Virus record (IMG/VR): IMGVR_UViG_3300050821_017626
Span: 32,262-96,261 of that record
Origin: a virus
Strand: one strand, 5' to 3'
Length of the DNA stretch: 64,000 nucleotides
The translations under genes and the position numbers were made by a program. Positions 37,825-41,289 of the stretch are shown here, in pieces; position 1 is the first letter of the stretch, and each line of letters begins with the position of its first letter. Below the pieces are notes generated by a model. The model worked only from the letters and a program-made list of their open reading frames with translations. It did no database searches and was not told the origin of the DNA.

Positions 37825-40800
37825 ATGCCCTATTCCTCGAAAAGTGAATTACCGGCTGCCGTAAAGCGCTTGCCAGGTCATGGCCAGCGCGTTTTCAAAT
37901 CGGCGTTTAATGCGGCGCACCGCCAATACTCGGGTGATGAAACGACGGCCTTCAAAGTTGCCTGGGCAGCGGTGAAGCACAAATACAAAAAGTCCGGCAA
38001 TGAATGGGTTGCCAAACAGGACGCTGGAGGAAGAACGGTGCATCAACTTCTTGCTGATCTAAAGACGTTTTATATGCGAGCCTTGGATCAGGCGGAAGTC
38101 GGTGACATGGTGCGGATCAAGGGTGCCATGGATCTGATCGACCAGGTAGCCCTCAATCCCGACAAACACGAGCCGCAGAACGATTTCCAGCAACTGCAGC
38201 AACTGCAAGGGAAGTGTGTTCTGGCACTTGGGTTCGATCTGACCCAGCACATGGGGTATACGCCGACTGTTCCTCACGAGCATGATTTCGCTGGCAGCCT
38301 CAATCACCGTATCCGCTGTGTTTGTAAAGCCGCCAAAGAGCAGATCCCGGAGTATCTTGGTCCTTGGGGTTTCGTCCTGGCCGTCTACCCCGATCACATT
38401 GTTACCTGCGCCGAGGACGACTATCTGGAAGGTTCAGATAAAGACTATTGGTGCGTGGAGTATGAGTTTGACGAGGATTGCGGCGAGGTAACTTTCGGCG
38501 ATGCGGAGCCAGTTGACGTGGCTACGATTGTCGTCAACAAGGGCGAGATGTCCGCGATGGATGGAGATGACGACGATACCCAGAGCCAGGATGCCCTTGG
38601 CCAAATGGAAGGCAAGGATGGTTCTGGCGAATACGGAAACACCAAGCCGAGCAAGGGGGAGTCCAACAAATCAGACGGCGATGGCCAGGATTTCAAAACT
38701 GACAATGGCCAGAAGTTTGGCAAGGCTGCCTACCTGATTATCGGCGATCCGAAATCCCCCTCTACCTGGAAGGTGCGCGTGGAAGAGACACCGGGCCATA
38801 TCACCGTTCCGCAGTTGGGCCGCGCTTATGCCGCGCTCACCAAGGGGTTTCGGGGTAACACGGTTCAAGCGGGGTCTGACGCGAAAACTGCTGCGCTTGC
38901 GAAGCTCAAGGGCCTCAACAAGACCCACGGCGGCGAGTGGCCGGGAGAGCAGGATCAGGGGGACATCCCTGATTGGCTGGCGCAGGGTAAGGACCCGCCG
39001 GGCGGCGATACGGAGCTTGTGCAGACGAACTCGGTGCAACTGCAGTGGGATGGGGAGAAGCATGAGACGGGCGTGATGCGGGTTAGTGGTGTGGCGACCC
39101 GCGCCAACGTGGTCAACTCCAAGAATGAGGTTTATCCGCTCGACGTTTGGCAGGACAACCTTCCTCGGCTGCAGCGGCTGGCGCAGGGCGGTAAACTCGT
39201 GGGCGAGTGCCAGCACCCTGCAGACGGCCGGGCTTCTCTTGATCGCACCTGTATCAAGTACGAAAAGTTGTGGTTGGACGGGAACGACCTGAAGTTCGAA
39301 GGGCTCATTCTTCCCACTGAGCCGCACGGCAAGAATATTCAACTCTTAATCCAGAACAACGTGGCGGTAGACCTTTCCAGCCGGGGGCGCGGCACCCTGA
39401 AGCAGGGGGATTGGGAAGGCGTGACGGGCGTTAGTATCGTACAGCGCGGATTTCGATGTGACGCTTTTGATCCTGTGGTAGCCGGGGCTTCTCCTGGCTC
39501 CCAAATAACCGACTGGCAGATGCAGTCAGCGGACCACAACGATACGGAGGAAGACGTGGAAACGAAGGAGCTATTGGAGAAAATCGCAGCCTCCATGGAA
39601 ACAGTGGGATCGCTGGCTGCGACGGTCGCGAAGCAGGGTGAGATTCTTGCGGAGTTGGGCAAGACGAAGGAAGTGACGCAGGACAAGAACACTGAGCCGA
39701 CGGCGGATGAGGTTCGGGCACAGAAGTTGAATGCCTCGCTCAACAAGATGGCGACCCGCCAGCGCATCGAGGATCTGACGCAGGAAATCAAGGAGCGGCG
39801 CAAGTGGGGCCAGCAGTGGGTGAACAAGTATCGCCAACTGATCGAGAACGCCAAGCCGGAGACGGAGGAGGCGGTGGATCAGGCGGCAAGCCGCGCGGAA
39901 GAGATTGTCGAAGGGATTCTCGATCAGGCGCCCCATTTCCCTGGCAACGGGTTTACCGTGCAGGCGGACAAGGGCGAGCGAGGCTTCCGCAATGGCTCGG
40001 AGTTGCTGGACGATCTGGTCAAGGACTTGCCCGACACAGAACTGGCGCAGAGCCATCCTGATACGGTGTTCCGGCGCCGGGACGAGCAGGGTAATCCGAT
40101 CTTCCCTGGCCATTTCCGCACGCCGCGCCGGCAGATGCGCAAGTGGATGGAGAATATCGCTCGCCATCAGGACGCGAACTTCAACGGGCCGGGCGCGTTG
40201 AAGGAGCTGGTGCTGCTCTCGCAGGGTTACGATCCGAGCTGCACCGCTGATCAGGTGCTCTTCCAGGATTGTTCCGCAGCCGGGTCGACGACCGTGGGGA
40301 ACAGCGGCGCACCGCAGTCGGCCATCTTTATCTTCCCGCTGGTGCGGCGGGTCTTCCCGCAGTTGATTGCCACGGAGCTGGCCTCGGTGCAGCCGATGGA
40401 CCGGCCGGATGGCAAAATCTTCTTCCTCGACTCTTACCGGCAGAGCCCTGGCGTTGACTCAAAGGACAGTGCGGGCGCGACGGTGAGCGGGGAGATGCGG
40501 ATCGACCGGTCGGACTCGTTCAGTTCGAGCTACTCGAATAACCCTGGTGAGTGCCAGGCAGTCAACACCATTCAGCTTCGGTTGTCCTCGATCTCGGTGA
40601 CGGCGGATAACAAGAAGTTGCAGGCGGTGTGGACGATTGAGGAACTGCAGGACCTTCGGGCTTACCATGGGCTGGATGCTTCGCTGGAGTTGGTGGGTTC
40701 GCTCTCGCGCGAGATTGCGCTGGAGTGGAATGAGACGGTGCTCAACGAGCTTACTACTGGCGCTACCGGAGCAAATCTAACGTTTGGAACGACCAATCCT

Positions 40801-41289
40801 ACTGGCTACACGCAGAAGGAATGGGACGAGTACCTTTCGAGGATGCTCGACTCCGCAAGCGCACAGGTGTTCAAGAAGCGCCATGGTGATATTACTCATA
40901 TTGTGGCAGGGCCGGATGCTTGGGTAAAACTCGCAGCGACCTTCCGGGTGGGCACCCATCCGAGGGACGGAGCCAATCCTGAGCAGTATGCAGGGCTGAC
41001 TTTGACGCCGTTCATGCAGGGAACTTTGTCGAATGTCAAGACTTACAAGACAAGTTTCTGGTCTGGGGTCAACACCAATACGATTATGGTATTGCGCAGA
41101 GGGGCTGATTGGTCCGATACCCCTTATGTCTGGGCGCCTTATCTTGATTACGTTTCGCCCGTTCTGACTCTCCCGAATACATTCAACCAGAATCAGGGCA
41201 TTATGAGCCGGGTCGCTCACAAGGTTGTCGTTTCGGAAGCGATTGCCAACATCTCAATCCAGCAAGGGGTGACTGGAGTTCCTTTGTAG
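37825..41289 (+). CDS. ChaB - prohead protease - scaffold - major capsid fusion
   Basis: A 1154-residue polyprotein. Residues 1-60 form a ChaB domain (ELPAAVKRLPGHGQRVF). About 60-400 is an unknown region with an acidic linker. About 402-570 is a T4 gp21-like prohead protease with GECQHP at about 461 (the His is expected to be catalytic). About 575-700 is a scaffold-like coiled coil. About 760-1154 is a gp23-like capsid domain (IFPLVRRVFPQLIA near 834). A gp21-type site, IVE|G, occurs at 694-697; cutting there would give a 458-residue capsid. This ATG is chosen because the ChaB fold starts there. Confidence 0.87.
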   Translation: MPYSSKSELPAAVKRLPGHGQRVFKSAFNAAHRQYSGDETTAFKVAWAAVKHKYKKSGNEWVAKQDAGGRTVHQLLADLKTFYMRALDQAEVGDMVRIKGAMDLIDQVALNPDKHEPQNDFQQLQQLQGKCVLALGFDLTQHMGYTPTVPHEHDFAGSLNHRIRCVCKAAKEQIPEYLGPWGFVLAVYPDHIVTCAEDDYLEGSDKDYWCVEYEFDEDCGEVTFGDAEPVDVATIVVNKGEMSAMDGDDDDTQSQDALGQMEGKDGSGEYGNTKPSKGESNKSDGDGQDFKTDNGQKFGKAAYLIIGDPKSPSTWKVRVEETPGHITVPQLGRAYAALTKGFRGNTVQAGSDAKTAALAKLKGLNKTHGGEWPGEQDQGDIPDWLAQGKDPPGGDTELVQTNSVQLQWDGEKHETGVMRVSGVATRANVVNSKNEVYPLDVWQDNLPRLQRLAQGGKLVGECQHPADGRASLDRTCIKYEKLWLDGNDLKFEGLILPTEPHGKNIQLLIQNNVAVDLSSRGRGTLKQGDWEGVTGVSIVQRGFRCDAFDPVVAGASPGSQITDWQMQSADHNDTEEDVETKELLEKIAASMETVGSLAATVAKQGEILAELGKTKEVTQDKNTEPTADEVRAQKLNASLNKMATRQRIEDLTQEIKERRKWGQQWVNKYRQLIENAKPETEEAVDQAASRAEEIVEGILDQAPHFPGNGFTVQADKGERGFRNGSELLDDLVKDLPDTELAQSHPDTVFRRRDEQGNPIFPGHFRTPRRQMRKWMENIARHQDANFNGPGALKELVLLSQGYDPSCTADQVLFQDCSAAGSTTVGNSGAPQSAIFIFPLVRRVFPQLIATELASVQPMDRPDGKIFFLDSYRQSPGVDSKDSAGATVSGEMRIDRSDSFSSSYSNNPGECQAVNTIQLRLSSISVTADNKKLQAVWTIEELQDLRAYHGLDASLELVGSLSREIALEWNETVLNELTTGATGANLTFGTTNPTGYTQKEWDEYLSRMLDSASAQVFKKRHGDITHIVAGPDAWVKLAATFRVGTHPRDGANPEQYAGLTLTPFMQGTLSNVKTYKTSFWSGVNTNTIMVLRRGADWSDTPYVWAPYLDYVSPVLTLPNTFNQNQGIMSRVAHKVVVSEAIANISIQQGVTGVPL

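Follow-up and report, generated by a model that had tools for sequence, protein, structure and literature searches.

A single reading frame joins the parts of a T4-type head module

The window analysed here covers 64,000 nucleotides of a 96,261-base IMG/VR record, in which there is a single match, and contains a gene (37825..41289, + strand; a single open frame of 1154 codons plus stop) that probably encodes a self-processing head precursor polyprotein. Its gp21-type protease would now cut after Gln and would free a capsid protein of 340 residues; we put the probability of this reading at roughly 0.8. From the N terminus, the chain carries a ChaB domain (residues 9–64), a gp21-type protease (about 401–556), a helical scaffold (about 568–813) and a gp23-type capsid protein (about 815–1154). 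The original prediction, made from the letters alone, had listed the same four parts in one frame, and Pfam, PHROGs and Foldseek all agree with it: ChaB, Peptidase_S77 and Gp23 are matched in Pfam, and structure prediction pairs the protease part with T4 gp21 and the C-terminal part with T4 gp23. Scans of IMG/VR with capsid sub-alignments brought the number of distinct fused proteins to 11, including this one. It also seems likely that the genes of a T4-type head module have merged into one self-processing chain, with the S77 protease and all its cut sites having co-evolved from Glu to Gln at P1.

The assembly and maturation steps that we propose are drawn from T4 and from sequence signatures. 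The precursor, ordered as core modules (ChaB and an unnamed domain), gp21-type serine protease, coiled-coil scaffold and gp23-type capsid, would co-assemble through its capsid domain, which would form the outside and enclose the scaffold, the protease and the core modules. The protease would activate itself by cutting LVQ|T after Q400, and would then chop the scaffold at several [LIVM]xQ|[SAT] sites. Cleavage of LFQ|D after Q814 would release the capsid protein, so that expansion and packaging could follow as they do in T4.

The protease and its predicted activation site

The T4 gp21-type prohead protease domain (39025..39492, + strand) is assigned by Pfam S77, phrog_207 and a fold match to 5jbl. 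Peptidase_S77 matches residues 418–554 with an E-value of 5e-9 and a score of 36.4 bits against a curated cut-off of 27, relatives reaching 1e-15, and the PHROGs head maturation protease matches residues 409–598 (9e-28). A domain profile finds T4 gp21 (5jbl) with an E-value of 8e-19. The predicted protease fold matches the same structure (Foldseek E 3e-11, TM 0.76 on the target) within a model of low overall confidence; this full-chain AlphaFold model (pLDDT 46) served solely to match the protease and to place the linkers. The GECQHP motif named in the original prediction is present. Of the fused and the separate proteases, 9/9 and 72/74, respectively, have the predicted catalytic His464 (39214..39216, + strand), and 9/9 and 74/74 the predicted catalytic Ser518 (39376..39378, + strand). 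In the 5jbl chain, the residue aligned with Ser518 is the Ala of GVASRG, which we take to be a mutated active Ser.

T4 gp21 activates itself by removal of nine N-terminal residues (PMC9958956). Here, a predicted activation site, LVQ|T (residues 398–401; 39016..39027, + strand), lies immediately before the first strand, and LVQ|[ST] occupies this position in 5/5 fused proteins of the ChaB clade, with LIQT in a later-found member. Among distinct N-termini of separate-gene proteases, 58 of 63 carry LxE near the start. The site is less evident in fused proteins lacking ChaB, which have FKQ|S, SVQ|G, AVQ|G and LIQ|S in a linker; this counts against the proposed reading. Three positions that are basic in nearly all separate-gene proteases have changed in the fused proteins: R435 is replaced by Q or E, H477 by I, M or L, and K494 mostly by T or D. 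From the alignment, these positions are candidates for a specificity switch.

The scaffold region and a candidate internal start

The scaffold region (residues 568–813; 39526..40263, + strand) is marked by long AlphaFold helices (576–612, 627–659, 663–675 and 681–701) and by enrichment of LxQ motifs. At the protease/scaffold junction, Gln567|Ser568 (39523..39528, + strand) is a possible cleavage site: the Gln is invariant (9/9) and is also found in L121 (YQ|S) and L129 (LAQ|A). The motif at this junction is weaker, since P3 is often not hydrophobic.

T4 uses about 72 copies of gp21 to 930 of gp23 (PMC9026906). Unlike this arrangement, a fused chain implies a protease-to-capsid ratio of 1:1, which counts against the polyprotein reading. 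The stoichiometry problem would be solved by a nested gene, in which an internal start past the protease also yields scaffold–capsid chains and leaves the protease as a minor species. Nested genes have parallels in lambda C/Nu3 and herpesvirus UL26/UL26.5. The candidate start is GTG578 (39556..39558, + strand), which stands behind a GGAGG-like sequence (39546–39558 for the Shine-Dalgarno-like stretch together with the GTG). Equivalent starts are ATG570 in L003, ATG594 in L002, ATG571 in L100, ATG217 in L102, GTG539 in L097 and GTG555 in L098. In 7/9 sequences, this place holds the first- or second-ranked Shine-Dalgarno-like internal start (window P 0.03–0.09 each). However, synonymous-codon shuffles gave non-significant values (0.06–0.79), the internal start is absent in L090 and L103, and even the main start, at 37825, lacks a clear Shine-Dalgarno sequence. 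We regard the nested start as a tentative proposal, possible but rather unlikely. It is compatible with Gln cleavage and possibly adjusts the protease-to-capsid ratio.

Predicted cleavage motifs shift from Glu to Gln in the fused proteins

The fused scaffolds hold 39 copies of [LIVM]xQ[SAT], where shuffles predict 8.9 (p about 0.001), and 8 copies of [LIVM]xE[SAT], where 8.7 are expected. The counts are not independent because the 11 fused sequences are related; in six diverse fused sequences only, the Gln motif occurs 26 times against 6.1 expected. The 27 non-redundant separate-gene scaffolds give the mirror image, with 309 occurrences of [LIVM]xE[SAT] against 72 expected and 19 of the Gln version against 23. 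Fisher's test on the Gln and Glu motif counts returns 2e-31, a value inflated by the relatedness of the sequences.

The excess is also specific to position and region. Around Gln in fused scaffolds, LIVM is enriched 2.0-fold at P3 and SAT 1.7-fold at P1'; around Glu in separate-gene scaffolds, the corresponding values are 2.3-fold and 1.3-fold. No such P3/P1' enrichment was seen around Glu in fused or around Gln in separate-gene scaffolds. The Gln-motif excess is likewise absent from the other open reading frames of the fused phages (57 against 63 expected) and from the fused capsid body (5 against 7.2). On the other side of the balance, the protein in the window has fewer strict motifs, and P1' at its 814 site is Asp.

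These patterns bear on an alternative in which the chain escapes cleavage by its own protease, the capsid keeps its N-terminal part during assembly, and the Gln pattern reflects scaffold composition. Scaffold helices can indeed be Gln-rich. But the enrichment is specific to Gln, to P3 and P1' and to the scaffold region, where separate-gene phages show a matching pattern for Glu; moreover, the catalytic His and Ser are invariant. An uncut chain is improbable.

Head cleavages in T4, phiKZ, 201phi2-1 and SPN3US take place after glutamate (PMC5694885, PMC9026906), and the known cut in P1 lies between E120 and S121 (PMC9024508). The T4 cut motif is L/I-x-E (PMC9026906); here, the motif statistics and the conserved sites instead point to Gln, in a predicted LxQ. 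We infer that in this lineage the P1 preference of the protease moved from Glu, as in T4, phiKZ, SPN3US and P1, to Gln together with all its sites. L121 and L129, which came to light only once this hypothesis was in place, both carry Gln at the maturation, activation and junction sites. In L121 the maturation site would be LLQ|S or VNQ|S and the activation site IVQ|S; in L129 they would be LNQ|V, with Val at P1', and LIQ|T.

The capsid domain and its maturation site

The predicted mature gp23-type capsid protein comprises residues 815–1154 (340 aa; 40267..41286, + strand). Pfam Gp23 matches residues 906–1138 (E 5e-35) and the PHROGs major head protein residues 818–1134 (6e-30). For a separate AlphaFold model of residues 697–1154 (pLDDT 70, better than the full-chain model), the best fold match is T4 gp23 (E 3e-15). 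In this model, residues 802–835 form a low-confidence linker from a helical segment to the capsid fold.

The predicted maturation site, LFQ|D (residues 812–815; 40258..40269, + strand), lies within this linker. Separate gp23-type capsid genes start near residue 770–785 of the present protein, and aligned to residues 812–815 they have L-x-E followed by Ser, Asn or Ala, with Glu in 66/69. Gln, in the form [LM]-x-Q, stands at the position in 11/11 fused proteins, nine of which read LFQ|D, LDQ|S, LEQ|S, MDQ|A, LNQ|A, LEQ|S, LTQ|S, LTQ|S and LTQ|A. The position at which a gp23-type propeptide would be removed is conserved here as LxQ. This alignment supports Gln814 as the predicted capsid cut, which would give a capsid protein of about 340 residues.

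The original prediction had instead placed a gp21-style cut at IVE|G (residues 694–697; 39904..39915, + strand), which would release a 458-residue capsid starting at Gly697. The motif is present in this one sequence and fits L/I-x-E. However, it is unconserved, reading LIAD in L002 and L003, and as a cleavage site it was rejected for want of conservation. No other LxE[AGS] site is conserved among the relatives, and LxE[SAT] is, as noted above, unenriched in the fused scaffold. The aligned maturation position of the separate genes lies about 115–118 residues downstream of IVE|G, and the 458-residue product is not supported. By this comparison, residues 697–801 are a propeptide-like segment upstream of the separate gp23-type cut position. 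T4-style processing at Glu sites, IVE|G among them, is very improbable.

Fused relatives and the reality of the frame

Besides the protein in the window, the fused set comprises L002, L003, L090, L096/97, L098, L100/101, L102 and L103, followed by L121–125 and L129; the 5' ends of L102 and L129 are cut. Each of the seven records searched has exactly one S77 and one Gp23 match region, in the same frame. Identity to L002 and L003, which are two independent contigs, is about 60% across the full length of the frame. The MPY start at 37825 is where the relatives align; an in-frame ATG upstream, at 37780, is a possible alternative. Between L002 and L003, dN/dS is 0.03–0.15 in all segments, linkers included, a pattern indicating that the frame is translated as a conserved unit under purifying selection throughout. 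The fusion is not an assembly artefact, because ten further distinct fused relatives were found in IMG/VR: a frame error merging separate genes, which the original prediction had named as one possible refutation, is excluded by the independent contigs and by purifying selection along the whole frame, and nothing was found in its favour.

The conserved fused frame, together with its domain content, is far beyond chance. A tree built on the capsid part sets the fused group on one side of a branch with support of 100/100, and the branches within the group are long. The constant core of the fused proteins consists of the unnamed domain (about 157–245 here), protease, scaffold and capsid. Scans of GTDB genomes did not reveal prophage relatives.

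Comparison with known head modules

The closest known arrangement is the T4 head module (gp21, the gp22 scaffold and gp23), which has the same protease and capsid families in the same gene order and shares the catalytic His and Ser. A T4-type portal gene lies upstream here too (23033–24841; Portal_T4, E 1e-19). T4 differs in having separate genes rather than one chain, and the chain described here has extra N-terminal modules.

Major capsid–protease fusions have been described in Arthrobacter phages of clusters AM, AU and AW (PMC5513430, PMC12760985), which, as here, have protease and capsid in one gene. The families are different: CapnMurica gp13 matches Peptidase_S78 and the HK97-type Phage_capsid, without a ChaB match, whereas the polyprotein in the window has S77 and Gp23 and matches neither Peptidase_S78 nor Phage_capsid in Pfam. 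HK97 gp5 has the scaffold in cis with the capsid, and lambda C/Nu3 the protease in cis with the scaffold (cited in PMC5513430), but in both only two of the three parts are joined, and these are of other families. A layout possibly midway from T4 to the polyprotein is seen in the phage contig L094 (IMGVR_UViG_3300050020_000041), where an S77-type protease is fused to a coiled coil (5299–6759; 486 aa) and the adjoining gp23-like capsid (6794–8191) is still a separate gene.

Our search of the open-access literature found no report of an S77–Gp23 fusion, and none of a Gln-specific S77 protease. Protease–capsid fusion as such is already known. The sequence supports the parts, the single chain and the putative self-processing named in the original prediction; its ChaB head is a lineage-variable module. 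A clade in which enzyme and sites have switched together to glutamine would be a natural specificity-switch experiment. If a three-gene assembly line can be replaced by one chain, the need for protease per prohead becomes directly testable.

N-terminal modules

The ChaB domain (residues 9–64; 37849..38016, + strand) matches Pfam PF06150 with an E-value of 1e-16 and 61.7 bits against a cut-off of 27. It is found in this protein, L002, L003 and L100. L097 and L098 have DUF6582 at the front instead (E 1e-32), and L090, L103 and L121 have neither. We considered ChaB as the key to the fusion and rejected this idea because five distinct fused relatives lack it; as judged from these sequences, ChaB is an optional, lineage-variable front module and not the essence of the fusion. 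The unnamed middle domain (about residues 157–245; 38293..38559, + strand), delineated by alignment, is shared by every 5'-complete fused relative, with or without ChaB. A region similar to phrog_19463, a family of unknown function (residues 281–351; 38665..38877, + strand; E 3e-9), is confined to the ChaB clade.

ChaB is also found at the N terminus of a 408-aa head-region protein of an archaeal virus, vir524 of Methanomicrobiales (L004, BK063669; 6001–7227). This protein also has a coiled coil and probably a protease-like part, and the capsid is separate and of another family than here. ChaB may be a recurrent head-core module.

Genomic neighbourhood

Directly upstream of the polyprotein gene lies a nucleoside diphosphate kinase gene (37062–37544; Pfam NDK, E 4e-42), and similar NDK-like open reading frames precede the polyprotein in L002 (3–455) and L003 (5423–6001). 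Within the head-gene region, between the portal-side genes and the polyprotein, there is a 1285-aa open reading frame (32674–36531, + strand) that looks RHS/YD-repeat-like by eye. Endonuclease VII/HNH-like genes, possibly free-standing homing endonucleases, surround the capsid and tail genes (41322–42182; 45474–46757, – strand; 56827–57897) and are found in relatives too (L003 10200–10988, – strand; L090 8217–8786). On the tail side (52330–54811) lie genes resembling a methyltransferase (Pfam E 3e-12) and a family 9 glycosyltransferase (7e-13).
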